This document shows positions 2,444 through 24,543 of a DNA stretch of 64,000 nucleotides, one piece after another. Position numbers and translations under genes: made by a program. This DNA comes from Pestalotiopsis fici W106-1 (Eukaryota > Ascomycota > Sordariomycetes > Amphisphaeriales > Sporocadaceae), in the NCBI RefSeq assembly GCF_000516985.1, contig NW_006917093.1:682001-746000 (forward strand). The letters run 5' to 3'. The notes beneath the pieces are model-generated. The model did not search any database. It was not told the origin of the DNA and saw only the letters and a list, made by a program, of their open reading frames with translations. The first letter of the stretch is position 1. Each line of letters starts with the position of its first letter.

Positions 2444-5400
2444 ATGGCTCTTCAAACCAATGTATTCCGGAATGGTGAATGGGTCACCCGCACCGTCAGC
2501 CCGGGAGACTTGTTTGCAGCGGCTTCATCGCAAACCATTAAACAGCCAAAACGGCTGTCCGCTCCACCAACTTACGGCCTTTTGACCAGAACCGTCATTG
2601 AAAGTCCTGTCTTCAATTGGGTCTTGCCAGTACAACTGAGGTCACCCAAATACAATGATGTTGTATTTGTTGGGGTATGTAGTCTACCTTTTCTCGTGTA
2701 TTCTCGAAGAATAATGTACTACTGGCGTAGAACCGAGATGTCCTTGGCCATTTCGGCAATTATGTGTCACTAGGACGCTCCCCAAAGTGACCCTCTTGCA
2801 AGATTTGGGGCATTATGAAACTGACGATTCGGCTAACGTTTTGAACCCAACAGGACAATTTTGTGCAAGTCTCCGAGCTTGGACAGGATATTCAGCTTCA
2901 CGACATTGCCAGAAAGCAAGATTTTGGATCTCGAATTCGCAATGCCTGTGTTATTGGATCTCCAGCGCACTATGGCGAAGATGCTAGTGTGAACGAGATG
3001 AAAGCTGAAGATGATGATGTGGACATGTTGACAGCAACCTCCCATGGCCAGCTTCCACCACAACTGGTTGCATTGGTTCTCGAGCGAGGCGACTTGGTCT
3101 TTCTCTTCCTCGAACAAGATACTTTTGGCCAGTGGCATTTTGTCTCACATGGTGAAAAAATCCCAGATACCCGCCTGATGCTGCCCGGCTATCACCTGGC
3201 AGTGGATCCAAGTTCGCGATATCTGGCTCTGGGTTGTTCAGAGACACATTTCCAAATTTGGAATCTGGAATCAATCGATACTCTTCGGGACCGCCGCGCA
3301 AGAGGGCTGCCCTTTAGACCCGTCACAAAATCGGTCATTCCAAAAGCCGTGACTGGGGTTATACACAAGATTGCCTTTCTCTCACCTGGCGCAGACAATG
3401 AAGAGAACGTTGTCCTGACATTGATACTTGTACACAAGGGTAGTTCCAAATTACATCGGTTCGAGTGGGAACTTACAGATGACGTGGCCTACTCTTTACG
3501 TCAACCAAGTCCAGGGTGGGCACTCGCTCCGGATTACCAGATGCCTCTGTTGATGATCCCCTCGACGATTCGAGAGAGTTTTTTACTGGTCACGGAGACA
3601 AGCCAAGCCCATTGGGCAACACTTAGGAACGGACAGCTCGAAGCACAAGTTGTTGAGATGGAAGAGCGCGATCAGACCGAACTACACATTGGCAATACCA
3701 TGCCTTTGTGGACCGCATGGAGCAGGCCATGGCGCTTGCCAGAATACCACCTTGACAAGGATACCATATGGATGGCGAGGGAGGACGGCATCCTACAATT
3801 CCTCGAGATTGCAGCCGTGGGTGGAATTTCCACCAATGTAATCTTGGGGGAAGTCAAATGCAAGATAGACACAGCCTTTGCTTGTCTGTATGACCGGTTT
3901 GCGGACATTCTCATCACTGGCGGTGACTCGGGTCCTGGTGCAATATGGCGGGTACGCAGAGCCCCGAATCTTGTCATGTTTAGTAGCTGATCATTTTCCT
4001 CCCAAAGGCCGAGGCGAGACAAGCACCAAGTCACATCGGAACTATACCAAACTGGTCCCCAACAGTAGACATTATATCTACCAAGCCTATACAAGTTTCT
4101 CAGTCGGATGGCAAGAAACATCGATCTCGCAATGCTCAAAATGGCGAGTCGTGTTCACGACAGGACCAGCTATTCGCATGTGCTGGTCGAGGCCAGACTG
4201 GATCAATTGTCGAATTCAGGTATGGCTTTGAGGCAAGAGTCGGTTTTGACTTTGACCTCGAAGATCATGTGCAGCAATGCTGGACAATGAGGAGTCCGGC
4301 AAACAGTCCAGACTCTGAACTTTGCCTGCTGCTGGCCTATCCCGACAAATCTACCATTGTCCACATTGATATTGATACCCTCGCAGCCACCTTCAAATCC
4401 CAGGAAGAAGTGCCTTTTGACCTATTTTCAACCACATTAGCAGCAGAAGAGCTCGATGATGGAACAATAATCCAGATTACGACGGATTTTGTCACCATTG
4501 TTGATCCTTTAGATGGGTAAGTTATGCGTCCATTTTAGGCTTTGTGGAAATTGTTTGCTAACCTATTTAGCCATCTGCGACACCCTATGAGCCATGTCGT
4601 GGGTAATTCTGAGGCTGTTGTTACTGATGCGACGGCAAGAACGGATCTGGTAGCCATATCGTATTATTCTGGCCCTGATTTTCGCGTCAGCATAGGACGC
4701 GTAAGTGGCCTCGATTTGAATCTAGGCCCAACATATAACATTAGCGGAGAAGTCACATGCCTTGCGTGGTCCAAATTTGCAGGAGAGAGTGCCTTGTTGG
4801 TCGGTGTCTGGGACCGGGAAGCGGGCAAGCCGCTACTCATGGTATTTTCGACGCAAATCAGCCCAGAAAATCAAACGCCGGAACCAATCCGTCTTGACAT
4901 TGTCCAACGTGAGTATGAATATTCGAAATGACAAAGGTCCCACTAACAACTTCTGGTACTAGTCTTGCGCGCGCAACAGCCTGACAACAATCCCCTCGCC
5001 GGCATGCACCCGACTGAGGCCTTTACCAGCATGGTTTCCATGGAGCATAAGGAGGGATATGCTACGATCTGCATAGGCTCCAGAAGTGGTGAAGTCATAA
5101 CACTAGCACTGGACCCGAATAACATGCAGACCTTTCAAGGCACGTGCGACAAGTTTGGCTCAGCAGGAGCATATGTATTCCCAATGAGTACAGAGTCGGA
5201 ACCGTCGTCTCTCTTCGTCTGCTGTGATTCGAATGTCTTTTTTCTGTCCAGCCGGGCAACGAGGGGGAGACCTAGATTTGAGAAGAAGGACCGCGTCTGG
5301 GTGACTGGTGTCGAGTCTGAGACGAGTACGTCTCCTGACGTGAGCACTGTTGGCAGAATGCGACGAAATCTGTCACAGGTTGCCGGAAAATCAACGCTCA

Positions 5401-6812
5401 CCATGGTGTCTGGGTCCTCTATTTACTTTGCAGAGTTACAAAGTGTTTCCAAGCCCGTCTTGCGTCATCTCCCTGTTCTTGGGACTCCCTACAAAGTCAT
5501 GTATCACCCGAGGCTGGATGTCCTGGTTGTGGCGGTTCTGTATCGTGGCTGCCCGACCCTACGATTCATCGATCCCGTCACTGGCGTGGATCTCTCAATG
5601 CCGACTGATTCCGGGGGCGTTGAAGTCCCATTCATCACTGGTCTCGGAAGACCCGGCTCTCGGATCTTGGCATTGTCAGACTGGAATTATGAAAAGGACG
5701 GCCGCACCTGGAGTTACCTTGTGGTGTCGGTACGACTTCCTGACGGCCAGGGCCAAGTATTGGTTATCACGGCAAGCAAGGATGAGAGCCGGGTATCGGA
5801 TGGCCCTTTGAGAATACGCTTCTTCACCAAACTGAAGAGGACGGGATACGCGGACCCAGTTTGGTCGATCGCGACCGAGGCCCAAGGATTACTTCTCTGC
5901 ACTGGGAACACAATCCAGTACGAAATACTTGACTTGGAAGAGAAGAAACTAAGAAAAGTAAAGGAGCATGTTCTCGCCTCGCCCGCAACTTCAATGGAGG
6001 TTGTCCATGACAGACTTTACGTCACAACTACGCGCCATTCGCTTGAGATTGTGGACTTTAAAAGTTCACCCAATGCAGAAACAATGACACGACTAAATAC
6101 GGATGACAAGGCCAGACCGGCACTGCACTGTCTCGACGGTGTCGACACTTCAAGGAAAGGAAACCACCAGGGCGTGATACTTGTGTCGGATAATTCTTGC
6201 GGAGTATGGGGGATGTGGGCTCCAGCCGAGAGCGACAGGCCTTTCAAATCAATCTTTCTAGCAGAACTGCGGGCATCAGTCAAGCGTTTCGTCCGCGCAA
6301 GAACTAGAATGCCCTGGAGTGGCCCCGAGCAGCAATCATTGTATGGGCATGTGCCAAGCAGCCGTGACGGTGCGGATATCCTTGGACTTGGTATCGATGG
6401 GTCCTTGAGACATTTCACAATACTGGACGCGTCAGCTTGGCGACTTCTCCGGTTCATTCAGAACCTTGCCGTTGCCTCGCCAAACATTTGTCATCCTGCT
6501 GCGTCTTATGCAGAGATTGGCAATGGTGAAGATGGTGAGTTTGAGGCCATGGACACCGATTGGGACCCGGAACCCAAGAGCTCGCCTATAATGAACATGC
6601 ATGTCGACGGGGACATCCTCCAGCGTTGTCTGGACCTTCGGGCTTTGGAAAAGTTGACTATAAACAAGGAGCATGCAGCTCGTCTTTGCAAGCTTCTGGA
6701 AAGTCTGGAAGGTGGAAAATACACACGGGAACTACAAGACGATGGCGAAATGACTGCATACGTTGATCTTGCCTACGAAGTACTTGAGTACTACCTCTCG
6801 CCAGTATTATGA
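2444..6812 (+). CDS. MMS1/DDB1/CPSF-A family beta-propeller protein
   Basis: Five exons are read: 2444-2674, 2854-3951, 4008-4516, 4571-4908 and 4963-6812, all phase-compatible, giving 1341 residues. The N-terminus (MALQTNVF, then GLLTRTVIESPVF) and the stretch CAGRGQTGSIVEFRYG resemble the fungal MMS1_N/CPSF-A group, often labelled thermotolerance protein. Length and lack of membrane segments fit the multi-propeller scaffolds of DDB1, CPSF160 and Rse1, which act in ubiquitin-ligase, mRNA 3'-end or splicing complexes. The exact complex for this paralogue is not known to me. The ATG at 2444 starts the conserved N-terminus. Intron 1 is 179 nt and less certain. Intron 2 is read as 3952-4007 ending AAG with branch gctgat, because that restores an alignable frame; the alternative end at 3986 would leave only 35 nt. 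Confidence 0.82.
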
Positions 6813-7822
6813 TGAGGAGGGTCGAGAACGTTGACTGCAGTCACAGCCATCCTTGATTACTACGATCTCTATGGATTATTACAAGAAGGGATTACAGCAC
6901 AGTGACTAGAGACCAAAACATTGATCAAGGGACAAGAAATGGCGTTGGCAGCATTGGCTAATAGACTAGACAAAAGAAACGAAGAAAAACAATGTTGTCT
7001 TTTTCAAGGATCAAATGGGCAGTGTCTAGCTTTTATGAAATGCTTGCTATGATGCAAAATGTATATGAAAACAGGAAATGAAGATTTTCTATGTCAGCTG
7101 GTGCCTCCATTGAGATGGAGCTCTTTACAGTATATTACATGTGTTGATGTTTCTCTGAAGAAGGACGCTGAAATTAGTGCTTGTTTCGATGCTGGGCCTT
7201 GAACCTTTGCTTGGTGCTGCCTAGAGTATACGCGAGTTGCAAAGAGCTGGGATTCACAATTTGATTGTGTGAGTCATGAAACGAAAACCATCAAAACGTC
7301 CCAAACGGTTAAACGGATCGAGTTCTTGGAGCAAAAAAATATATAATATATGCCCGAGGTCAATGTAGGATTCAAGGTAAGTAGCTGAGAGTCCACTGTA
7401 GAGTGGGGCAAAAGTGCAAGCAAATTCTCCCCACATTTGGAATTTAGTGAGTGGTGACCTAAACTGAGCTTTGCCCACCAAGGTCCACCTTGTACGATAC
7501 CTGCACTATTCGTAGTGGGAAATCAACCCCTCCATCACAGCTTTGAGCCCACCATCTCATCCACATCCGCCACCTGTTTTGGGATTTGCGGCAGATCCAA
7601 GAACTTTTTTCTCTGTTTACCCTTCCCATTCATTTGTTGAAGGAACAGGTTTCTGCTGCCTCCTACAGCTCCTTGTCTGTTTTTTTTCTCTCCCCACGAA
7701 ATAGACGAGTCAAGGTCTATTATTTAGGCTGTCTTGCGAGCCTTTAATTAGTTTTCGTCTGGATTCTTTGAATTTTTTCTTCTTCCCGCTTTTTTAAAGC
7801 ACCACAAGCGACAACTGTCAAC
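6813..7822. other. Intergenic: 3' flank of the CPSF-A-like gene and eIF5B promoter
   Basis: No gene is supported. The last 250 bases are rich in pyrimidine runs (ttttctct, tttttttctct), typical of promoters of highly expressed fungal genes. The region ends with a good start context, gtcaacATGg. Confidence 0.6.
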
Positions 7823-10800
7823 ATGGCGCCCAAAGGCAAGAAGGGAAAGAAGGGCGGCAACGATGACTGGGAAGCCGAACTTGGAGAGTCCATCGCCCCC
7901 GTCAACGGCAGTGAAGCCCCCGCCGACGATGCCGCCAACGGCGACGACAAGCAGGACGAGGATGCCGCCCCCGCTGGCGGTCTCATGGCCATGATGAGCA
8001 GACGTCGCGAGAAGAGGAAGAAGCAGGGACTGGGAGAGGACTTTGAAGTTCCCAAGGAAGAAGAGCCTGCCCAAGACGCGACTCCCGCCCCGGCCCCCGT
8101 CGAGGCCAACATGGACGACGAGTTTGCCCTTCCCGAGAAGAAGGGCAAGGGTGGCAAGGGCGCGGCCGCTGCAAAGGCCGCCGCCGGAGCCGATGACGTT
8201 GGCGAGGACGGCCGCATCTTGACCAAGGCCGAGAAGGAGAAGCTCAAGAAGGAGAGGGAAAAAGCCAGAAAGAAGGAACAGGTGAAACAATACCAGAGCC
8301 ACCTCCAACATTCAAGAAGATGCATATTGACAAGTTCATTCCAAGGCTGCCAAGAAGAAGACTACAACTCCCGCACCAAAAGCCGAGCCCGCCAAGCCTG
8401 CCCCTGAAGAGAAGAAGAAGAAGGAGGCTGAGCCTGTCCCCGAGGCTCCCGCCGCCGGCAAAAAGGGCAAGAAGCTTCCTCCTCACCTGGCAGCTCTCCA
8501 AAAGCAGCAGGAAGAGCTGCGCTTGCGCCGCGAGGCAGAGGAGCGCCAAGCTGCCGAGGAAAAGGCACGCCTTGAGGCAGAGGAGAAGCGAGACGCCGAA
8601 GAGGTGAAGCGCCGCGAAGAGGAAAAGGCCCGCAAGAAGCAAAAGGAAAAGGAGAGGATTGACCAGCTCAAGAAGGAGGGCAAGTTCATGACCAAGGCCC
8701 AGAAGGAGGAGAAGGCTCGCAACGAGCGCAAGCTCCAGCAGATGCTGGCTGCTGGTATCAAGATTGGTCCCCAGGAAGGTGAAGGCGAGGAAAAGAAAAA
8801 GAAGGTTGTTTATGACAACCGGAAGCGTGGCAAGGCAGGCAAGGTGCGTAACAAACAGACCCTTGTGAAATGTTGGGAATCGATTGCAATATTAACCGGG
8901 CTCTAGGTCGACGAGGAAAAGGCCCTGGCCGAGGCTGCCGAGCGAGCAAGACTGGAAGTAGAGCGTGTTGCCAAGGAGGCTGAAGAGAAGGCTGCCAAGG
9001 AGGCTGCCGAAGCTGAAGCCGCTGCAAAGGCCGCCAAGGCAAAGGAAGAAAGCGACATTGAAGATGATTGGGAGGCTGCAGCCGAATCGGACAAGGAAGA
9101 CGTCAAGGACAGCTGGGATGCCGACTCTGACGAGGAGGGTTCAGAAAAGAAGTCGACAGAGCTGCCCTCCAGGCGAAAGGCCACGGAGGACTCAGAGTCC
9201 GAGTCCGAGTCCGAGTCTGAAGAGGAGTCCGAGGAAGATGAGGAGCAGACCGCCGCACAAGCAGCCGAGGCCCAGCGCAAGAGAGAGGCTGCCGAGCGAC
9301 GTGAAAAGGCACACCAGGCTGCTCTGGCAGCTCGATCCGCGGACAACCTCCGATCGCCCATTTGCTGTATTCTTGGTCACGTCGATACCGGAAAGACCAA
9401 GCTTTTGGACAAGATTCGTCAGACAAACGTCCAGGAGGGCGAAGCTGGTGGTATTACGCAGCAGATTGGTGCTACGTACTTTCCTGTCGATGCCATCAAG
9501 CAAAAGACTCAAGTGGTTAACCGTGATGAGTCTTTCGAGTTCAAGGTTCCTGGTCTCTTGATTATCGATACCCCTGGTCACGAGTCCTTTTCCAACCTGC
9601 GATCTCGTGGTTCTTCCCTCTGTAACATTGCCATTCTGGTCGTCGATATCATGCACGGTCTCGAACCCCAGACTCTCGAGTCCATGAAGTTGCTGAGAGA
9701 CAGAAAGACTCCCTTTGTTGTCGCGCTGAACAAGATTGATCGTCTGTACGGCTGGAAGAAGGTGGACAACAACGGCTTCCAGGAGAGTTTGGCTTTGCAA
9801 AACAAGGGTGTTCAGAACGAGTTCAAGAACCGTCTCGAGCAGACCAAGGTTGCTTTCGCCGAGCAGGGTTTCAACTCTGAGCTCTTTTACGAGAACAAAT
9901 CCATGGCCAAGAACGTTTCCTTGATCCCCACCTCGGCACACACTGGTGAGGGTATTCCTGACATGCTCAAGCTGATTGTTCAGCTCACCCAGGAGAGAAT
10001 GGTTGGCTCTCTCATGTACTTGTCCGAGGTCCAAGCTACCGTTCTCGAGGTCAAGGCCATTGAGGGTTTCGGTATGACCATTGACGTTATCTTGTCCAAC
10101 GGTGTCATTCGCGAAGGTGATCGCATCGTGGTATGCGGCACAGAGGGTGCTATAGTCACCAATATTCGTGCACTTCTCACGCCTGCGCCGCTCAAGGAAC
10201 TGCGTGTCAAGTCTCAATATGTCCACAACAAGGAGATCAAGGCTGCCATGGGTGTCAAGATCAGCGCTCCTGGTCTCGATGGTGCTATTGCTGGTTCTCG
10301 ACTTTTGGTTGTCGGTCCTGATGATGATGAGGATGACCTTATCGATGAGCTCGAGGGTGATCTCAACGTGCTCTTTAGCCGTGTCACCAAGACTGGACGT
10401 GGTGTCTCGGTGCAGGCCTCGACTCTGGGTTCGCTGGAAGCCTTGCTCGACTTTTTGAAGGACTGCAAGATCCCCGTGGCAAACGTGGGAATTGGACCCG
10501 TCTTCAAGCGAGATGTCATGCAGTGTGGTACCATGTTGGAGAAGTCGCCCGACTATGCCGTCATGCTGTGCTTCGATGTCAAGGTTGACAAGGAAGCGCA
10601 GCAATATGCCGAGGACCAAGGCATCAAGATCTTTACTGCCGACATCATCTACCATCTCTTTGACAACTTTACCAAGCACATGGAGGAGCAACTCGAGAAG
10701 AAGAAGGAAGAGTCCAAGATGTTGGCCGTCTTCCCTTGCGTTCTCAACACGGTTGCTGTGTTCAACAAGACCAACCCCATTGTCATTGGTGTCGATGTGA

Positions 10801-11929: not shown

Positions 11930-14900
11930 ATGGACAAGTCTAACAAACCACCAGGCGAGCCCGAGCTCGAGGGAGATCATGGGATCATGATGCAGAACTT
12001 CGAGAAGCACCTGGGGGATGAAGTTACCAGCGTGCCAGACGAGAAGAAACGCCTTATCGACGCAGTCGACGGTGCAAGTGTTGACGTGACAGTAGAACCT
12101 ACTGCTCGATCGCTAAGAATATGCAAGAAACTCAACATGTTTGACTCTAGCATCTTCGAAGGGAAAACTCCCTTGATTCTGGGGGCTGCTGAAAACGCTC
12201 CCATTAGGAGCCTACAACTCTTACTGGACCGAGGTGCGAGCCCGCACGTCGCGTGCACTCAAGGAAGAACAACGGCCCTGATGCATGCTGCATGCTCCAA
12301 CTACTCAGAGGTGGTAAAACTGTTACTGAGTCATGACTTCAATCCCGACGCTCGCGATAATGATGGTTGGACAGCCCTATTGCTCGCTGCGAATTCGAAG
12401 CAGGGCAGCAACAATGGCCTCGCTGTCAGAACAGTCCAGCAACTCTTGGATTCTGGTTTCGATCCCAGAGCCGTAGGTTTCGATGGGAGCACCGCCATCC
12501 ACATAGCCGCATTTCAAGGAAACACCGAGCTTATGAATATACTCTTGGAACACGGACTCGACGTGGATGTTAGGAGCCATGACGGCTCCACGGCGTTGAT
12601 GAGAGCAGCTATGGCAGGACATTTGGCAGCTGTCCGCAAGCTGATTCAAGCCAAAGCGGATGTCAATGCCGCCGATGGTGATGGCAGGACAGCGATGATG
12701 TGGGCGATGAGCAGAGTCTGCCACGTGGGGGTCCTGAATCATCTTCTTGGTCGAGGAGCGGACCTCCATATTCAACTTCTGACAGATGGTGACACTTTGT
12801 TGCATGACGCTGCTCGGATGGGCAATCTGAAAGGTGTCCGGTTTCTATTGGATAACCAGCTGAATATTGAGAGCCGCAACAAACTGGGCAAGACCCCGCT
12901 GATGCGCGCAATAAGTGCAAACCAGGTGGAAGTAGTCAAGCTCCTTCTAGACCGTGGATCGGACGTCAACGCACGGGGCGAGCTGGTGAAGGTGTCTGAC
13001 TTTACCGTCTCTACATCCCCCTTAACTGAGGCGATAGAGATCGGAAACCTCGACATATTACAACAGCTTCTGGCCAAGGGGGCCACAATCGGCGTACCCG
13101 AGCACGAGGAAGAGACAGCCCTTCTATTCGCTCTATCACGTGGACGAAGGGAGCAGGACAAGGTCGTTTCTTTGTTTCTGGACCGCGGAGCCAATGCTAA
13201 TTACAACGATTCTAAGACTAAGACGACTCTCTTGCTCTTGGCAATCCGCCACAATCGCTTCGGTTGCACAAATCTCCTCCTGGAGCGTGGCGCAGACGTG
13301 GACTACGAGGAGCGCAACGGCTTTACTGCCTTGTTATATGCCGCGCGGTGGGGTGATGCACAGATTGCAGAGACGCTCTTGAGCCACGGGGCCAATATTG
13401 AACATCAAGACACAAATGGATTTACTGCGTTGGTGCTATCGGCGACCAAGGGGCATTTAGCAGTCGTACGCCTACTTCTAGACCGTGGCGCCAATATCGG
13501 CCACCAAACTATAAAACTTGGAGTGACTGCCTTGATCATGTCCACCATGAATGGGCACATAGAAGTAGTGAAAGTGCTCCTAGACCATGGAGCGGAAGTT
13601 GGCCAGCAAGACGAACAAAGCGAGACTCCCCTGACCATGGCCGCGTCTAGAGGGTGTGCCGAGGTTACCAGGATGCTTTTGGACCGCGGATCGGACCCTG
13701 ACCACCGAAACGCAGCTGATATGAGCGCACTGGCAATATCGACACAGAAGGGACATTTGAGCGTTGTAAAGATCCTCCTTGAGCACGGGGCTGATGTCAA
13801 CATCACTACGGCCAATTGGAATACCCCCTTGATCATTGCATCAAGATTTGGCTATGAGCAGATAGCTGAGGTATTACTCAAACGAGGGCCCAATATTGAG
13901 GCCTGCGATGATGAGGGAGATCCGGCTTTGCTCGTTGCAGCGGCACGTGGGCACACTGAAATCACGAAATTACTTCTGGACTATGGCGCTCAGCTGAGCT
14001 CTGTTTCGCCTTCGAAGAATAATAGAAGCACGCTAGCTTTGGCGTCGCTGGGTGGTCACGAATCAGTAGTCAGGCTTGTGCTTGAACGACAGGCGCAGAT
14101 CGAGGTCTACGACGACAACAGAGACTCTTCCCTGACCTTAGCAGCATTGAATGGGCACGAGGGAGTGGTGAAGATACTTCTGGAAGCGGGGGCAAACGTA
14201 AACACAGCCACACAGCGTGCGGACGGAGCTGTTACTCCTTTGCAGATAGCATCGAGTCGTGGTCACCACGGGGTGGTACAATCACTTCTTGAAGGCGGTG
14301 CCAATCCTGAGGCTCCTGATGGGAAGGGCCTTACGGCATTGATACTTGCTGTCCAAAACGGACATGTCAAAACTGTCAAGGCGCTCGTTGAAGGAGGGGC
14401 CAGTATCGAAGCTCGTAATCAATATGGCAACACGGGACTGCATCTCGCCAGCTTAAGCGGATATGCTGAAGCTGCGAAAGTTCTCCTCGAGGCAGGGGCA
14501 CGCACCGACACCCTCGATCAAAGGGGCCGTACTGCATTGCATTGGGCCAGCTTTTACGGGCATGCTGGAGCCGTCAAGGCGCTTATTGAAGGAGGGGCAC
14601 GCACCGACACCCTCGATCAAAGGGGCTTTACAGCATTGCATTGGGCCAGCTTTTACGGGCATGCTGGAGCTGCGAAGGTCCTCCTCGAGGCAGGGGCACG
14701 CACCGACACCCTCGATCAAAGGGGTAAAACAGCATTGCATTGGGCCAGCTTAAAAGGGCATGCTGAAGCCGTCAAGGCGCTTATTGAAGGAGGGGCAAAT
14801 ATAGAGGCTCCCTTGCATGACGGCAGCACGGCTCTAGTGCGTGCGGTGGCCGATAAGAAGGAGGCAGTTGTAAAAGTTCTAGTCGAGGGGGGCGCATCTA

Positions 14901-17520
14901 CTCAAGTCCGAGATCCTCGCACCAATACACCCTTGATCATTGCGATCACCAAGGACAGTGAGGCGTCATTTGAGGTCCTTGTGCAGGCCGGCGCCGATAT
15001 CAACGCCTCCGGAGAAGGGCACATGTCGGCCCTTAGCTACGCTGCTCTCGAAGGGCGTACCAGAATGACCAAGATGCTCCTTGAAGCAGGTGCCAAAGTC
15101 GAAGGATGTCCCGGAGAAGTCGGTTCACCCTTGATTTGGGCCGTGCGAAAGGGTTTCTTGCCCACGGTTCAGGCCCTTCTAGAGGGTGGAGCTAATGCCG
15201 GAATCGAGGCACACGATCATGATGGTCATACAGCTTTGACTTGTGCGATAGAGCGCAATTCTGCCGACTTGATTCGAGCCCTTCTCAAAGCTGGGGCGAA
15301 TATCGAAGGTCGACATAAGAATGGACGAACCCCTTTGCTTATTGCAGCAGCTGACGGACACCCTGTTGCTGTGAAGACGCTTCTTGAGGCGGAGGCGGAC
15401 GTTGATGCTTCGGATCCGATCAAGGGCTTGACTGCTTTGATGTGGGCCTTACGGATGCGGCATAAAGAGGTGGTTGAAATCATGCTTGAAAAAGCACAGG
15501 AGACTTCCCATCTTGAGGTCGGCGCGGCGGATGAACCAGTATTAGCTTGGATTTTCAATCGCTTCGAGTCCCTGATGGCGAAATTTTTGTCCACAGCAAG
15601 CAAGTCCAGGACAGAGATCGAGGTGATGCGACGCCGCCTTGCGAACTCCGAAAAGCCTAGTCGCCGGACCATTGCATCTTACATGAGATGCGTCGACCAT
15701 CAGGTCATCAGTAAGGAGGATGAGCTGTCCTCTTGTGAACTGCCTGGGTGCTTTCAGTTGTGGAAGAAAATGCTGGGCTTTTTAACAGATCTACTGTCCC
15801 GGCAAGGTGTCTTGGGCGAAGTGCTTGAGCTCTGGCAGAGCGTCGAGAGTTTGATAAATGGTGCGACTCAACATATCGTAGCTGTTGGATACCAGGGCCA
15901 ATTGAAGGAAGATTATCGACTCTCTCAGTCGGAGGCAGCCGGCTTGCAAAACCAGATGATTGAGCTTATTGACATGATCCGCGAGGAAGCTCTGGTGTTC
16001 TTCGAATCGCCTCCCGAAAATATGTCATTGCGTTCATCACCTTTGATTCAATCCTCAGAGTCTTCGAGCACACCTAAGACCCCCGAAAAGTACCCATCGA
16101 GGAAGGACTTGGGGAACAACTTGGATCTAAGCAGCGTGGCCCCTCCTGCTCCTAAGCGTGGAGATGCCTGGGAGAAATTTGCATTCTGGCCACCATGGTC
16201 TAACTCTAGGAGCGGAGCCCACTATCTCCCCAAAATGCTAGCACTCGTCGCCTCTGGTGCGTGTGACATGGCCTCCATCTCTCCCATTTGGCGAGAAGAT
16301 ACAGATGGTTTGGAGAACCTCAAGCGCTTGGTTGGTGTGGCTCGAGAGAGGTGCGTAGTTGCTCTCTGTCAAGCTTGGCACCAGGATGCCGAAACTTTCA
16401 AGTTCGTGGAGGATTGGGTGCAGCCGGACGACGGTGGCGGCATTACCATGATGCCAGCCTCTTTGGCCGCGTTCGAAGGTGCCGTCTTGAGCGGTATGCA
16501 GAAAATACTTTGCATTCCCAGCGCTGTTTCTAAGCCCGAGGCTGCCGATCTCGTACCACCACCACCACCACCGAAGATGTGTCAGATGATACAGAGCCAA
16601 TACATCACGACGATCAATGTTGTTTTGGGTGGCATGGCCGAAAATGCTGAAATGTCTGCGACAAGTGTAGATGAGGATGACGAGGACAGCGATGTAGAGA
16701 GTGATACAGCCGCGAGTGGTCCGGCGAGTGGACAAGCCCCGAAAGCCGAAAGTGGGGGCGCCGCCAGTGCTTGTGATCAGGTATGTCATCCTCCTAGTAG
16801 TGGCTGTGAAATACTACTCCTCTACTAACTGATGCACAGAATACGCATATGCTCTTAACGATTGGGAATATCAAACACCTCCAAACTAAAGTCCTGCCTA
16901 GCCTCAATGACCAGCTTGAGAACGTCATCTCCACCAAGTTCGCCGAAGGGAGGAACCAGCTCTCCGACGTGCTGCAAAACATTGGCGCACGTATCTTCCA
17001 GTCATACACGCGGCTGATGGTCCAGAAATTGGCCGAAGCTATCAGCACCGGCGTGACATTACCCAACTGGATGCCGGCGCCGGGCCGAAAGCCACGCAAC
17101 GCGAGTCCCTTTACGTATCATGTTCTACGAGAGATCGTGGTGGTAAAAAAGGATGTCTTAGCAACGGCGTCGGCGAGTCTGGCGACACATGTGGTTTCGG
17201 TTCTGCTGGAGACAGTGTGCGCCGAGATGATCAAGGCGCTTGGCAGTTATACGTCCTTGAACTTGGAGGGCTTGATGCAGGCCACGATCGACTCCGAATT
17301 CCTCTATCAGGTCCTGTCGCACTACACGACCCCGCGGGCGTCAGATCTGCAGTCGCGGGAATACAAGATGCTCGACGGCCTCATAGACAATAAGATTCGT
17401 GGTGCTTTGGCAATGGAGATGCCTGAAATGCGCAGTGTGCTTAAGCGCAGGAGAAGGGCTTGCATGGGGGAATTCAGTTGCTTGCGAAAGCCTAAGAAAA
17501 ATTATTTCAAGCATGACTAG
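11930..17520 (+). CDS. Ankyrin-repeat array fused to C-terminal half of exocyst subunit Sec5
   Basis: Exons 11930-16780 and 16840-17520 join in phase 0 (donor gtatgt, acceptor gcacag), giving 1843 residues. Residues ~70-1195 are about 33 ankyrin repeats of ~33 residues with TPL/TALxxAxxxGH and VVKLLLxxGAD consensus. From ~1205 onward the sequence is not ankyrin but matches fungal Sec5 (EXOC2) as I know it: a PKRGDAWEKFAFWPPWSNS stretch, HYLPKMLALVASGACDMASI, RERCVVALCQAW, FEGAVLSGMQKIL, then in exon 2 LMQATIDSEF, LSHYTT and a GEFSCLRKP end. Sec5 is part of the octameric exocyst that tethers secretory vesicles to the plasma membrane. The N-terminal half of Sec5 is missing and replaced by the ankyrin array, so this is not an ordinary Sec5. 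A Pro run (VPPPPPPP) lies near residue 1545. No membrane segment or signal peptide. An integrated decoy or guard role is inference. Confidence 0.85.
14465..14800 (+). repeat. Near-identical 99-nt ankyrin units with 198-nt higher-order period
   Basis: Inside the ankyrin array the string cgcaccgacaccctcgat starts at 14501, 14600 and 14699, exactly 99 nt apart. Successive units alternate between an AAKVLLEAGA type and an AVKALIEGGA type, so the recent duplication unit is a 198-nt dimer. Other ankyrin units in the gene are well diverged. Recent exact copies inside an older array suggest ongoing unequal exchange or gene conversion. Confidence 0.9.
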
Positions 17521-18455
17521 AAGTAGCACGGAGTATATATGGTTTATTGAGGAGGACAATCTTTGACAGAGAATTAGATTCTAAGTTGTTTTCCACTTCA
17601 GGTTGTGCGTGTATACATTACCAACCACGTCATTACGCCCATTATAGCAACAGTTTTCTATGGCAACATCGTGGTGCTCATCCCCATGCTAACATTTCTG
17701 CCGCGAAAGATACTGTGAGAACATTCGTGTTCATCCGTATAGACTCCGTCAAATGCACTCTCTTTCTACACAGCGAGTCTAGATAGCCTTCAATAGCGAT
17801 TTGTACCTTGAGGCTACGATTTAGCCACGATGTATAGAATAGTGTTTTTCTTTCTTTTTGGGCATGCCATGGCTGTACTAGCTGTACTGGCTGTTTTTTT
17901 CTTTCCTCGTTTTCTTTCTTTCTTTTTTGTGTTAGAGGCATACTGACTGCTGCAGTCGGGAAAAGGGTGACTGCCGTGGAATACAATAAATCGATGCGTC
18001 GTCGATGAGAGGCCTACCTTATTTTAATACTGCCACCGTACGGAGGTGCTGTATACCCGCTTTAATGCTATATTAATAGCAACAAACATTGGTGTTTGCA
18101 GTGAACAAAGGGGCTATCCCTCCAAATTGCCCTCCAGAATGCCTTCATAGCCCTCTCCGGCAGAGAGAAAACACTCCTGAGACAGCCCTTTTGGGGGCCA
18201 AAATTACCAAAAATGGCAATTTGCCCTCACTGATAGTTGAGCTGCATTGCTCTTCATCCGGCCACAGCCTTGCACAGCACAGCACGTGATGGGACGAGAG
18301 GGGTTTCCTTTCCCCTCACATGTACAACCATGTCAAGATTATTCCCTTTATGCGAGGATACTTGACATCCTCCATTCTTTCGAATTTGGCACTGCTTGGC
18401 ACCTTTTGCGTCTGTGAGTTTTTCTGTAAGCCCGAATTGACATTTTCTATCTTTG
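17521..18455. other. Intergenic between ankyrin-Sec5 and NLR genes
   Basis: No gene is supported. A run rich in ttctttct lies around 17845-17930, and the stretch from 18240 to 18450 is a plausible promoter and 5' leader for the receptor gene. No repeats or mobile-element ends were recognised. Confidence 0.55.
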
Positions 18456-21400
18456 ATGGCGATGGATGCTCGTCCCATTCCCAGCGCAACAGCGGAGACC
18501 CAAAAGATCATGAATATATCTGAAAATACCTTTGGAGACAATACGCATATCCACCATGGCGATATTATCAACAATCTTGCGTTCCGCAAGCCTCTACCCA
18601 CCGCTCGAGATGCAGAGTTCGGTTCTTTTGCCGAACAGCACAACAGAGACTGCCTTCCCGGCACGCGAGTCGACCTCCTTCGCGAAATCATGGAGTGGAC
18701 AGACAATCCATCCACCGAATGCATATTCTGGCTGAACGGAATGGCAGGCACGGGAAAGTCAACCATTTCCCGCACAGTTGCTCGATCGCTCCAGGAAAGG
18801 GGAGCACTCGGTGCTAGCTTCTTCTTCAAGAGAGGCGAGCAGGATCGAGGGCATGCGCGCTTGTTCTTCACAACGATTGCTTCGCAGCTTGTGATTTGGA
18901 AACCCGCCCTCCAGGGCTCTGTCGCGGAAGCCAGGGAGACCTACAAAGGCATTGAGGATAAGAGCATGCGAGAGCAGTTTGAGAAGCTCATCCTACAACC
19001 CTTGAGCAAGATCCAGCGGTTGGACGAGCCAGTCGTGGTCGTTATCGACGCGCTGGATGAATGCGACCAGGATGAAACCATCGGGCTTATCATCCAGTTG
19101 TTGCCACAGGTCAAGGCACTGACTTCGGTACGCATGAAAATATTCATCACCAGCCGGCCCGAGCTGCCGATTCGTCTTGGTTTCAAGTCAATAACGGGCA
19201 CGTACAAGGACATTGCCCTGCACCAGATACCTGAGCCCGTGATTGAACATGACATACTCTTATTCTTTCAGTCTGAATTCGCAAGAATACGAGGAGACTA
19301 CTATGAGGACATCCAACTTCCATCAGGATGGCCTGACAACAACGCTATCCAAACCCTTGTCCAAATGGCCGTTCCTCTATTCATTTTTGCCACGACCATC
19401 TGCCGCTTTGTCGCAGATCCAGTCTGGTCAGACCCCGTCAGTCAGTTGGAGAAAGTGCTAGAATATCGGTCGAACGCCGGTGAATCTGAGCTGGAAAAGC
19501 TCGAATCGACATATCTTCCAATACTCAACCGGCTGATCGATGGAACCGCTGGCCTGAAGAGGAGTCGCTTGGTGGATGAGTTTCGCGCTGTTGTTGGCCC
19601 CATTGTCCTTCTCGCGACGCCTCTCTCCATCGCTGCTCTCGCAAGACTCCTCGACATCCGCCCAGCGGCCATAAACGGCCGGCTCAGAACTCTCCATTCC
19701 CTCATCAGTGTATCTGCCCAGCCAGACACCCCTATTAGGATCTTCCACCTGTCTTTCCGCGATTTTCTCGTCGACCCTATCAGACGGCATGAGTTCTGCG
19801 TGGGCGAGAGAGAGTGCCACGAGAGACTCGCACACCGCTGTCTCCAAGTCCTAGAGGCAAATCTAAAGAGAGACGTATGTAATTTACAAGCTCCTGATGT
19901 GGCTGGCTCAGCAGTCGATCCCAGTGTGGTTAAGATGTACCTACCAGCACATGTCGAGTATGCCTGCCTGTATTGGGCGTATCATATAGAGCAGAGTAAG
20001 GGTCGCGTCACCGAGGTGCAAATCGACCTGTTTCTTCAGCGCCACCTCCTTCATTGGTTGGAAGCCTTATGTCTTCTAAAGAAGATAAGAGCGAGTATCG
20101 CCATACTGGAAACCCTATCTAAATACGTCCAGGTATGTCATCACTTATCAGGCGAGCTTCGGCTCAAGAATTGTTCTAACCTGGCTTAGCCTGGGACCAT
20201 GCTTGAAGGATTCCTCCGGGACGCGAGCCGGTTCACTCTGAATTGTATCCCTGTCATGATTAGGTTTCCTCTGCAGCTCTACAATTCGGCAATCGTTTTT
20301 TCTCCCCAGAACAGCGAAATCCGAAATGCCTTCATCGACGAAATGCCCTCCTGGATATCCCCCTTCCCGGTTGTGGACCCAGAATGGAACACGTTCCTCG
20401 TGCACACGCTCGAGGGTCATGGCGGACCAGTCAACTCTGTGGTCTGGTCACACGATGCAACTAGGCTGGCGACGGCGTCAAGAGATAAAACTGTGAAGAT
20501 CTGGCACGCGGTAACTGGGCAGTGTGAATTGACACTAGAAGGCCACAGCGACTCCATAACCTCCGTTACATGGTCGCAAGATGCAGCTTGGCTTGCAACA
20601 GCGTCAAATGATTATACTATCAAGGTTTGGGACCCAGTGACCAGTCAGTGTGTATCGACCCTCGAGGACGACACCACGTTCGGATTTGTTGGATGGTCGC
20701 ATGATGCCCAATGGCTTGCGTCTATCTCATCCCACGGCGGTACCATTAAGATCTGGGAGCGAGCGACTGGCCGTTGTAAAACGACAATTAGAGGCCACGA
20801 AAAGGATTTCTACTTTCTTTCTTGGTCGCATACTGCGGCCTTGTTCGCATATGGATCGCATTATGACGTTGCTATCAAGATCTGGGACTCGGCAACTAAT
20901 AAGTGCATAACGACTCTTCAAAGTGGAGACACTTCTGTTCGATCTATAACTTGGCTGCGCAGCGGTACGAACCAAATCATGTCCGCTGCGGTCAATGGAA
21001 CTGTGAAGACCTGGGACGTGACAACCAACCAGTGTACATCAACTGTGAAGGTCGAGGGTCGTCTTCATAACATAACCTGGTCGCATGACGCAACCCGGCT
21101 TGCATCGGCATTCGACTATAATATCAAGATCTATGATCTAGCGACTGGCCAGATAATATCGACGTTCGGAGGCCCTGACCACAACATCAACGCCATATCC
21201 TGGTCAAGCAACATAGCTAGACTTGCATCAGCCTCGCATGATCGTACCATCAAGATCTGGGACCCGGCGGATGGTCAATATGTTTCAACACTCGAGAGCC
21301 ACAGCGCAAGGGTCACCTCTGTAGCCTTTTCATACAACGCGGTCTACCTCGCATCAGCATCAGCCGACCATGTCATCAAAATCTGGGAACCAGAAACTGG

Positions 21401-22367
21401 TCAATATTTATCGACGCTCGAGGGTCTCGGCAAGGAGACAAGACTTATGTCCTGGTCGTACGACACAAGCCATCTTGCAGTACTATCTGACGACTGCACC
21501 ATCAGTATCTGGGATATACAGACTGGCGACCATGTATCAATACCCGTAGCCCATAACGGTGTCATAAACTCCATATCGTGGTCATATACCGCCGCCCGTC
21601 TTGCCTCCGCATCAGATGATGATACCATTAGGATCTGGGATCCAGCGACTGGCGAGTGTATATTTACGCTCAAGGGGCATAAAGATTTTGTGAACTCTGT
21701 TACCTGGTCAAATGATTCAACTCGACTTATTTCCGCATCAGAAGACTGCACTATCAAGATATGGGACGTTGCAACGGGCCAGTGCGTGTCAACGCTCAAG
21801 GAACCCAGTGGCTGGGCAAGTGCTGTAGCTGTGTCGCAAGATATGACCCGGTTGGCATTAGCAACGCCTAGTTTCGCTATCAAGATCTGGGACCCTGTGA
21901 ACGGTCAGCATAGATCAACACTTGGGGGTCATGGCAATTATGTGAGGTCCCTGGCCTGGTCGCACAACGCGGCACGCCTTGCATCGGCCGCGGATGATAA
22001 GACCATCAAGATCTGGGATCTGGCGACTGGCCAATGCATGTCGTCACTTGCGATTGACGACCCGTTCTGTAGAAAGGACTTCCAGTTTCAGAAGACTGAG
22101 TTGTACCATTTACAAACCACGCTCGGCGCTTTTGAAGTACAAATTGCTACAGAACCTCTGAAACAATCCGATTCCCCGCCTCTACTTGCATCATACGGTT
22201 TCGACACTGAGTATACCTGGCTCTCATACAAAGATCAGAATCTTCTCTGGCTACCATCAGAGTATCGACCATCAACATCGACTTTCCATGGAAGAGTGGC
22301 CGCCATTGGGTGCAGATCAGGTCGTGTCTTCTTCTTCAACTTCGCCAAACCAAATCCCCTTTCATAA
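18456..22367 (+). CDS. NACHT-WD40 NLR-like receptor with N-terminal amyloid-like motif
   Basis: Exons 18456-20132 and 20190-22367 (donor gtatgt, branch ctaac, acceptor cttag) give 1284 residues. Order of parts: short N-terminal motif (residues 20-40); linker with LPGTRVDLL; NACHT NTPase with Walker A GMAGTGKST at 95-103 and Walker B VVVVIDALDECD at ~193-204, then TSRPELPIR; a helical section; and 13 clear WD40 repeats at ~630-1180, each with a KIWD-like end. The C-terminal segment (LLWLPSEYRP, GCRSGRVFFF) could close a fourteenth blade. This is the HET-E/NWD class of fungal STAND receptors, known for non-self recognition and cell death. WD repeats here are diverged from each other, unlike the near-identical ones of HET-E. 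Start chosen at the first in-frame ATG; ATG 18462 is also possible. Confidence 0.92.
18513..18575 (+). other. Putative amyloid signalling motif at receptor N-terminus
   Basis: Residues 20-40 of the receptor contain NISENTFGDNTHIHHGD. It lies before the NACHT domain, where fungal receptors such as NWD2 carry short amyloid templates. Eleven of 19 residues align without gaps with the C-terminal tail of the phosphorylase-like protein encoded about 0.7 kb downstream. The Asn/Gly/Thr-rich, alternating pattern resembles sigma-type or related beta-arch motifs; amyloid formation is inferred. Confidence 0.65.
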
Positions 22368-23038
22368 CGGTACTCTCCATCCTTGACAACCGTATTTGAG
22401 ATTTCAGGATAACGTGTTCAGAAATGGGAGGGAAGTAAAGGAGCTCAAGGCTTGAGAAGAATACAATCATGTTTGAAGTGCCCTGCTGCTTGTCTACTTC
22501 ATGGTTACTGTATGTTCACCTTAACAACAAACCTTGACATAGCGCTGCTTGAGATACGGTAAGATTACAGACTAATAAATGATGATGCGAAATGACTACT
22601 AAGTTATCTGTTCTTCTCTCGTCCCTGGACGTAGTTGGTACCTTGACTGCGATAATCCAGGCAACCAAGGTACTTAGGACTTCGTTTCTAGCTTGTGGGA
22701 ACTATTGTTTTTGTCGCCTGCTAACCGCTACCGTTCTTGGCAAAGTGTTGCGTGTGCAATCAGTTTCGAAAATAAGGAAAGTATACACAAGGATTATAAT
22801 CACAACGCTCTGCAATTAATTTCATTATCAAGGTAGGTCCCGACGATATAGTCTAGATTGATTTTCGTAAACACATAATTTATTTTCCGTAGTTCAGCCG
22901 TAAAGTAGGAGTTCTTTGGGTACCTATGCATGACGTGGATTACGTTATCGAGCCGGGGGGGCCAGAAATGATGCCTCTGAAGTTCAACAGCCTTGTCAGT
23001 GACCATTTCAGGCACACCACAAGTCCTCATTCCACATC
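22368..23038. other. Intergenic between receptor and phosphorylase-like gene
   Basis: No gene is supported in these ~670 bases. Both neighbours are on the plus strand, so this holds the receptor's 3' flank and the promoter of the downstream gene. AT content is higher than in the genes on either side. Confidence 0.55.
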
Positions 23039-24226
23039 ATGGCTGGCGAAAAACAACCCGCCTGTCGCGAGGACTTTCGTGTCGGTATCCTCTGCGCCTT
23101 GAGTCTTGAGTTCGATGCCGTGTCCCTTCTCTTCGATCGATTCTGGGACGAAGACGGCGATCCCTATGGGAAGGCGCCGGGGGACCCCAACCAGTACACG
23201 ACGGGTACCATCGGGAAGCACGATGTCGTGCTAGTACTACTCCCTGGTATGGGTAAGGCATCGGCGGCTGGAGCGGCGGCCAGCTTTCGCTCGAGCTACA
23301 GCAGGCTGGAGCTTGTGTTCCTCGTGGGCATATGCGGGGGCGTTCCAGGTGCTGGGACGAGCGAGGTTATTTTAGGAGACGTCGTAATCAGCAAACGCAT
23401 CGTCCAGTACGACTTTGGCCGGCAATACCCAACCGAGTTCAAAACCAAAGACACGATCGAAGATGGTTCCCGTAAGCCGGGTCGCGCAATCCATAATCTA
23501 GTCGCTGTCTTTGAGACGGAGCTCGGGCGCGGGCGTTTGCGAGGAAAAGCCTCCGGGCATCTAAAGGATATACAGGCCGCCGCCGTCCGTGATGGACGGC
23601 AGGCTGACTATCTCTACCCGGGCTCTGCCGAAGACAAGCTCTTCGCGCCGACATATGTACACCGACATTACAAGGAATGCAATCTGTGCGGCGAGGGCCC
23701 CTGCCCTGAAGCGATTCAAAGCTGCTGCGCAGAGCTAGGTTGCAAAGAGGATCATCTGGTGGTGCGGGCGCGTTTGGACAAGAAGCGAGATATGGCACCC
23801 GAGCAGGCGCAGGCTCCAGCCATCTTCGTCGGACGCATTGGGTCGGGTGATGCAGTCATGAAGTCTGGCGCCCACCGCGATGCGCTCGCTAAACAACATC
23901 AGCTTATTGCATTTGAAATGGAAGCTGCCGGCGCGTGGGAAGAGGTCCCGTGCATCGTCATCAAGGGTATCTGTGACTACGCTGACAGCCACAAGAACAA
24001 GCGCTGGCAGGATTTTGCTGCTATCACGGCAGCAGCAGTTACGAAGGCCGTGCTGGGCCGGTACGACCCGTCAGATAGTGGTATACTTGCTGAGAATGTT
24101 CTCAGTCAGGCTCTTTCAGCGCCGCAGAATCACAACACCATATCGAACAATAATTTCGGGAACGGGACCCGAATTCATTTTGGAGATGTGCACAGCGTTG
24201 GTTCTACATGGAGCGGGTTTGCTTGA
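23039..24226 (+). CDS. PNP_UDP (nucleoside phosphorylase-like) protein, candidate NLR effector
   Basis: A single exon of 395 residues starts at atg in cacatcATGgct. Residues ~14-355 match the fungal nucleoside phosphorylase/nucleosidase fold: VGILCALSLEFDAV, GMGKASAA, VGICGGVPG, GDVVISKRIVQYDFG, a Cys-rich insert (CNLCGEGPC...CC...C), and the substrate-binding MEAAG followed by IKGICDYADSHKNKRWQDFAA. Family enzymes cleave or phosphorolyse purine nucleosides. In fungi this domain is usually the N-terminal effector of NACHT or ankyrin receptors; here it stands alone. Its last ~30 residues are an unrelated Asn-rich tail carrying the same motif as the adjacent receptor's N-terminus. Position, strand and motif suggest it is the effector partner of that receptor (inference). 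Confidence 0.9.
   Translation: MAGEKQPACREDFRVGILCALSLEFDAVSLLFDRFWDEDGDPYGKAPGDPNQYTTGTIGKHDVVLVLLPGMGKASAAGAAASFRSSYSRLELVFLVGICGGVPGAGTSEVILGDVVISKRIVQYDFGRQYPTEFKTKDTIEDGSRKPGRAIHNLVAVFETELGRGRLRGKASGHLKDIQAAAVRDGRQADYLYPGSAEDKLFAPTYVHRHYKECNLCGEGPCPEAIQSCCAELGCKEDHLVVRARLDKKRDMAPEQAQAPAIFVGRIGSGDAVMKSGAHRDALAKQHQLIAFEMEAAGAWEEVPCIVIKGICDYADSHKNKRWQDFAAITAAAVTKAVLGRYDPSDSGILAENVLSQALSAPQNHNTISNNNFGNGTRIHFGDVHSVGSTWSGFA
24134..24190 (+). other. Putative amyloid signalling motif at effector C-terminus
   Basis: Residues 366-384, NTISNNNFGNGTRIHFGD plus a hydrophobic residue, follow the catalytic domain. It shares N, I, S, N, F-G, T, I-H and G-D in register with the receptor motif at 18513-18575. 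Placement at the C-terminus of the effector and N-terminus of the receptor mirrors HET-S/NWD2. Confidence 0.65.
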
Positions 24227-24458
24227 ATGGCATAGATGTTGCATATAAGCATGGATTTTGATACTTGATGCACTGCATAATACCACTAGAGCCCAGATGG
24301 GCCGAAACCCTAGCGCGGCTGGTCCCGCTTAATCCAAACCCCGTCTCATAGTATCAGGATGAGGGATTTTCTGTCTTGCAACATACACAAGTACGACATG
24401 GACATTGTTAACTTCAAATTCAGCATCCAATCATCAAATCATGATGATTCTAACCTCC

Positions 24459-24543
24459 GGGGATGTGGTCTAGTGGTATGACGTTTCCTTAGCATGCGAT
24501 AAAAGCATGGAAAAGGTTCTGGGTTCGATTCCCAGCTTCTCCA
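24459..24543 (+). tRNA. tRNA-Ala (anticodon AGC) with a short intron
   Basis: Cloverleaf parts are visible: acceptor ggggatg/cttctcc, D arm with gtctagtggtatgac, anticodon AGC at 24491-24493 in loop ttAGCa, T arm ctggg-ttcgatt-cccag, and discriminator A at 24543. A 13-nt intron (about 24495-24507) sits one base 3' of the anticodon, the canonical place. The third acceptor pair is G-U (24461-24540), the alanine identity element. One U-U mismatch occurs at the sixth acceptor pair. A and B box promoters are internal. Confidence 0.93.

Follow-up and report, generated by a model that had tools for sequence, protein, structure and literature searches.

A NACHT-WD40 receptor and an adjacent PNP_UDP protein of Pestalotiopsis fici share a short motif of putative amyloid signaling type

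How might a fungal NOD-like receptor (NLR) control an enzyme that is encoded by a separate, adjacent gene? The question is raised by a 64,000-nucleotide stretch of the genome of the plant-associated fungus Pestalotiopsis fici W106-1 (Xylariomycetidae, Amphisphaeriales; contig NW_006917093.1, positions 682,001 to 746,000; hereafter the window), in which the gene of a NACHT-WD40 receptor is followed by that of a protein with a purine nucleoside phosphorylase-like (PNP) domain. The N-terminus of the receptor and the C-terminus of the enzyme carry the same short motif. We assign a probability of about 0.7 to the reading that the two genes form a fungal receptor-effector pair wired by a short motif of amyloid type. 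Because both proteins bear the same amyloid-like tag, the receptor may switch on the enzyme by prion-like templating, which would explain the locus best.

The receptor gene, the enzyme gene and their common motif

The receptor is encoded by two exons (Table 1). As a correction to the first-pass annotation, the NACHT and WD40 open reading frames (ORFs) belong to a single spliced gene. Joined across the intron, they yield the public 1282-residue protein PFICI_04417 of P. fici W106-1. With NACHT/NPHP3_N and WD40 domains (Pfam) in one spliced protein, the receptor has the architecture of signal transduction ATPases with numerous domains (STAND). Homogenized WD40 repeats were considered and set aside, since positions 18000-24500 hold only two short tandem arrays, both outside the WD40 region.

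The next gene after the receptor, on the same strand and 671 bp downstream, encodes the candidate effector. Its AlphaFold model consists of a confident core, with predicted local distance difference test (pLDDT) values of at least 90 for 259 of the 395 residues, and a 35-residue tail (residues 361-395) with pLDDT below 50, that is, predicted to be disordered. Sequence and fold searches with the PNP lead to methylthioadenosine/S-adenosylhomocysteine (MTA/SAH) nucleosidases and aminodeoxyfutalosine nucleosidases. The Foldseek match to 4x24_A has an E-value of 9.2e-15 and template modeling (TM) scores of 0.69 by target and 0.43 by query. When 36 chosen sequences were aligned, residues E293, E295 and D313 did not vary, and the stretches around E295 and D313 align with MTA/SAH nucleosidase (MTAN). 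By analogy with MTAN, we take the three residues to be catalytic. Given the nucleosidase matches in sequence and fold and the invariant residues, which are partly aligned with MTAN, the effector is probably an adenine-releasing nucleosidase.

The likeliest candidate substrate, by analogy, is ATP. The PNP effector of the bacterial Detocs system cleaves ATP according to the glossary of PMC11249213, and hydrolysis of ATP by the PNP_UDP module is stated in the accessible part of a 2025 review (PMC12881547). Detocs-type effectors resemble the P. fici protein in being PNP-domain enzymes that serve as immune effectors. Detocs is, however, a three-gene defense system whose description, in the partial text of PMC11249213, includes no amyloid motif, and ATP is a candidate substrate of the fungal enzyme by analogy.

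One common ungapped motif, with the consensus TISNNxFGxGTxI[NH]xGD, is present near the receptor N-terminus and in the PNP tail. Both ORFs and both motifs occupy the positions given by the first-pass annotation; its count of 11 identical residues out of 19 is corrected to 10 of 19 over PNP residues 366-384 in the ungapped register. A strict regular expression for the motif matches only these two sites in the six-frame translation of the window, which is no test of rarity.

Two unrelated stretches rich in N and G could look alike, and N, G and H are indeed abundant in both of these. Such a coincidence is very unlikely in view of the alignment statistics. The local alignment of the 60-residue PNP tail with the 90-residue receptor N-terminus scores 61. 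The highest score among 20,000 shuffles that preserved the composition was 48, and that among 500 full-length shuffles was 54, so that none reached the real value. When all six-frame ORFs of at least 25 residues in the window were compared (96,053 residues in total), the PNP tail had its highest non-self score with the receptor (61, with 41 for the runner-up), and the receptor N-terminus scored highest with the PNP (61, with 43 for the runner-up). Furthermore, the motif is conserved in a receptor orthologue, P0121, and in six other PNPs.

An independent hidden Markov model (HMM), built from five other PNP tails with the window left out, was applied to 8,349 sequences (ORFs and proteins) with 530,481 residues in total. 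It ranked the window PNP first (E 5e-6), followed by the PNP homologue P0002 (0.0013), the window receptor (0.013), the public copy of the receptor (0.014) and P0121 (0.23); the first background ORF had an E-value of 1.1. The window receptor is therefore first among the non-PNP sequences. Its E-value, which is weak when taken alone, lies just outside the default inclusion threshold of HMMER, so that the rank, not the E-value, is the argument. The database included proteins fetched for their resemblance to the queries, and the rank among the background ORFs is therefore the fair reading. These sequence comparisons indicate that the motif is unlikely to be shared by chance.

Conservation of the motif in homologues

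A search with PNP residues 300-395 returned 1,139 proteins from 1,171 candidates, and the tails of the 120 listed matches were classified by eye, apart from the regular expression. The motif stands at the C-terminal end of seven of them, the window's own included: P0001, P0002 (Daldinia caldariorum), P0006 (Ilyonectria destructans), P0007, P0008, P0009 and P0014 (Verticillium albo-atrum). Among the other listed tails, two from Fusarium (P0010 and P0058) resemble decayed copies of the motif, four related ones (one named Trichoderma gamsii) bear another repeated pattern, and the rest are short, unrecognized or run on into further sequence. In six motif-bearing PNPs (P0002 left out), the mean pairwise identity is 53% in the motif, 59% in the PNP domain and 25% in the linker, compared with 23% for shuffled linkers. 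The motif is thus conserved almost like the enzyme, and the linker is not. On the receptor side, P0121 keeps the motif; it matches 98% of the N-terminal 95 residues at 82% identity. The motif-bearing PNP tails and P0121 were found separately in other species. In P0002, a kinase-like domain is followed by half a PNP, the C-terminal one, with its motif tail; the gene is either a chimera or a merger of gene models.

The conservation of the motif also bears on the possibility that the receptor arose by fission of a PNP-NACHT-WD40 fusion, in which case the motif would be a relic of the linker with no signaling role. An apparent gene of this order, L028, exists in the same genome: its NACHT domain, which has a PNP_UDP_1 ORF immediately ahead of it and WD40 repeats after it, is 46% identical to that of the window receptor. 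In Fusarium solani, the protein P0122 contains PNP and NACHT domains in one chain, and because of these two cases we consider that NACHT and PNP domains go together, which favors reading the window genes as a pair. The eight best matches to the window PNP in its own genome, however, do not include the PNP domain of L028. In addition, the motif occupies the N-terminus of the receptor and the C-terminus of the enzyme, is conserved while the linker is not, and is also found in other genera, on PNPs that are not joined to a NACHT domain. Fission is thus a very unlikely origin of the shared motif.

Comparison with published amyloid signaling motifs

The first-pass annotation had likened the locus to published amyloid-signaling pairs such as HET-S/NWD2, and the likeness in layout holds: the motif, conserved in some homologues, is N-terminal in the receptor and C-terminal in the effector, where it lies on a tail predicted to be disordered, and the genes are adjacent, on the same strand. 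The annotation had also considered a PNP_UDP effector in trans unusual, which it is not. A 2022 paper already describes PNP_UDP effectors in trans that carry C-terminal amyloid motifs and whose genes neighbor those of NACHT or NACHT-WD40 proteins, and its accessible text names three motifs on them: PUASM, the HRAM3-like NLR12 and PF01048_015 (PMC9815663). The layout is therefore already known, and the P. fici pair is a new example of it, with a tag that is assigned to no named family, PF01048_015 having been compared by description only. The gene pair is not mentioned in the partial texts of the literature on P. fici and amyloid, or on amyloid signaling with PNP_UDP or HRAM4.

PUASM is described as a new motif family with 11 neighbor hits, in which the NLRs are of the NACHT or NACHT-WD40 type; for one pair, fibrils of both peptides and in vivo prion behavior of an effector-side GFP fusion are reported (PMC9815663, partial text). 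As in P. fici, PUASM is located at the C-terminus of PNP_UDP effectors, for example in the pair EQB50682.1/EQB50683.1 of Colletotrichum gloeosporioides, and at the N-terminus of the receptors, mostly at positions 20-49, compared with 15-38 in the P. fici receptor. The PUASM pattern, FxGxGxQxxGxGxF, nevertheless differs from TISNNxFGxGTxIxxGD of the P. fici pair. It is absent from the effector gene (L001) and receptor exon 1 (L017), and among the loci it matched L013 only. PF01048_015, a minor motif associated with PNP_UDP in four pairs (PMC9815663, partial text), resembles the P. fici motif in occurring in few pairs and on PNP_UDP effectors next to NLRs; going by this description alone, the two may be the same. 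The accessible part of PMC12261475 distinguishes two PNP_UDP motifs, PUASM 1-2, of which 'PUASM 2' is probably PF01048_015.

The motif also bears some likeness to HRAM, whose positions are defined in the accessible part of PMC4518210, where two HRAM4 proteins and one HRAM5 protein are listed for P. fici. It shares the register of about 21 residues, with hydrophobic residues at positions 5, 10 and 16 and a glycine at 19, and five PNP homologues have Q at position 18 as in HRAM4 (PMC4518210, partial text). It differs at position 3, which is N, R, M or L, at position 18, which is F, Q or H in the copies compared, and at position 8, which is hydrophobic in HRAM and N in all nine copies compared. 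HeLo effectors carry two HRAM copies and the P. fici PNP effector one, as is reported for NLR12 on PNP_UDP effectors (PMC9815663, partial text). The asparagine at position 8 and the single copy do not fit a canonical HRAM (hydrophobic at 5, 8, 10, 16 and 18, G at 19).

The G-hydrophobic-Q-hydrophobic-G core of PP is absent from both motifs on inspection. A Pfam scan of the isolated motif peptides matched neither HET-s nor another amyloid-motif family, and is uninformative because sigma-like and PUASM tails gave no match either. Pfam NACHT_sigma likewise had no match in the window peptides, nor in the sigma-like tail at L009. PF11558 (HET-s) had no match in the whole genome, in a search without a positive control.

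We hypothesize, by the example of the published systems, that the WD40 part of the receptor would bind a ligand and the NACHT domain would then oligomerize. The clustered N-terminal motifs could fold into a β-arch or β-solenoid seed and template the matching motif in the tail, predicted to be disordered, of the adjoining PNP enzyme. The MTAN-type nucleosidase, activated by clustering, would cleave an adenine nucleoside or nucleotide, most likely ATP, and the hypha, challenged or incompatible, might stop growing or die. To the systems that have an enzyme instead of a pore-former downstream of an amyloid-type motif, the pair adds a testable case.

Several observations weigh against this proposal, besides the asparagine at position 8. 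The motif does not stand at the end of 113 of the 120 listed PNP matches, some of which have other patterns and some of which may be mis-modeled. On the receptor side, the motif was found in one of 22 listed matches (P0121), and a composite query for further motif-bearing NLRs returned three of 5,789 candidates at E <= 10 (P0009, P0121 and P0143), at a sensitivity that is low for a motif so short. The search for the motif in NLRs and in PNP tails, suggested by the first-pass annotation, thus extended it to the PNPs and the receptor orthologue named above but to no further NLR partner. Only in the P. fici pair was the motif seen in both partners of one genome. On a PNP tree of 54 rows, window included and the PUASM and C8 fusion rows left out, the motif label needs three state changes, at least two of which are forced by the starred branches. 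The distribution is therefore patchy, through repeated gain or loss, or through tails missed by gene models. Finally, searches of the 51.7-Mb assembly (20 contigs) with single motif peptides returned the query itself only, or nothing. The search with the PNP tail missed the receptor at that sensitivity, and exclusive pairing within the genome is thus unsupported.

The two proteins could also bind each other directly through short β-structured peptides, as a docking or homotypic motif, without templated growth of a polymer. Sequence similarity, predicted disorder and conservation do not separate docking from amyloid formation, and the motif is short, present in a single copy and devoid of the position-8 hydrophobic residue of HRAM. 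The combination of NLR N-terminus, effector C-terminus and adjacent genes, however, matches published amyloid pairs, as does the type of enzyme (PMC9815663, partial text), and hydrophobic positions broken by glycines would be compatible with a β-arch. We consider docking improbable, and amyloid-type templating from the receptor to the enzyme the better reading.

Other apparent receptor-enzyme pairs in the P. fici genome

The window pair is apparently one of several amyloid-type channels in the genome: two more PNP/NLR-like pairs carry other motifs, and there are apparent cis fusions besides (Table 1). We named the tail motif of the L009 PNP sigma-like. The divergent gene at this locus has a weak P-loop match (AAA_22, below the cut-off) and appears NB-ARC/TPR-like by eye. 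Related nucleosidases under different motifs, together with the apparent cis fusions, make this one genome a natural test of motif insulation and of whether PNP activation requires clustering alone.

Table 1. Coordinates of the receptor-enzyme pair in the window and of related loci in the P. fici genome
Feature	Location	Coordinates	Strand	Description
NACHT-WD40 receptor gene PFICI_04417, 1282 residues	window	18462..22367	+	Pfam NPHP3_N/NACHT and WD40; spliced translation equals public protein P0143
Receptor exon 1	window	18462-20132	+	
Receptor exon 2, including stop	window	20190-22367	+	
57-nt intron	window	20133..20189	+	GTATGT...TTCTAAC...TTAG; removal yields P0143 exactly
Receptor-side motif KIMNISENTFGDNTHIHHGDIINN, residues 15-38 of 1282	window	18504..18575	+	regular expression, alignment, profile; kept in orthologue P0121
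PNP_UDP_1 effector gene, 395 residues, MTAN-like	window	23039..24226	+	Pfam PF01048, E 1.3e-14; sequence and fold match to MTA/SAH nucleosidases
Effector-side motif QNHNTISNNNFGNGTRIHFGDVHS, C-terminal tail, PNP residues 363-386	window	24125..24196	+	regular expression, alignment, profile
PNP	L009 (G000:C12)	6224-7600	minus	52% identical to window PNP; ends in sigma-like motif
NLR exon	L009 (G000:C12)	about 7858-7941	plus	divergent P-loop gene; starts with 54% identical stretch
PNP	L013 (G000:C4)	2980-4179	plus	tail matches published PUASM pattern
Divergent NACHT gene	L013 (G000:C4)	1-2676	minus	N-terminus partly matching, by eye
PNP_UDP_1, NACHT and WD40 ORFs	L028 (G000:C8)	1123-6133		closely consecutive, as if one intron-bearing gene
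Second PNP and NACHT	L029 (G000:C8)	4299-7235		closely spaced ORFs, apparently cis-fused
PigL_N ORF	L059 (G000:C7)	3408-4399	minus	apparent second exon ending in two HRAM4-like repeats
TPR-containing gene	L059 (G000:C7)	about 4738-6931	plus	divergent; one HRAM4-like copy
NACHT-WD40 receptor	L032 (G000:C9)	3287-7498		carries HRAM4-like motif of L059

We tentatively propose, as a possibility on the doubtful side, a twofold extension of the amyloid reading: that TISNNxFGxGTxI[NH]xGD represents a separate, unnamed family of single-copy amyloid signaling motifs of PNP_UDP effectors, and that P. fici operates three or more PNP/NLR channels in parallel (this motif, sigma-like and PUASM), in which related nucleosidases have been re-plugged onto different amyloid connectors that would guard against cross-firing.

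A further pair of apparent amyloid type, at L059, has an effector ORF of the PigL_N type, which we take to be a relative of HeLo. In its receptor copy and its second effector repeat, the FG dipeptide occupies positions 5-6 instead of 10-11. We read the pair as HRAM4-like by the description in the accessible part of PMC4518210. At L032, where a NACHT-WD40 receptor carries the same motif, no L059-type effector was noticed among the long ORFs listed for the locus.

Fragments and fusions of such proteins occur as well. At G000:C13:801195-801586, a PNP fragment with an in-frame stop precedes the remnant of a sigma-like tail, possibly a decayed effector copy. In the protein P0084 of Dothideomycetes sp. 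NU459, a PNP-like part is separated from an NB-ARC domain by a motif-like stretch, FQLGYNHGSIGNIYIG, which may be an internal amyloid motif of a cis-fused protein.

Upstream of the receptor gene, positions 11930-16828 of the window encode a very long ankyrin protein (1632 residues), the C-terminal part of which matches Pfam Sec5 (exocyst) with an E-value of 6e-35, an odd pairing of domains.

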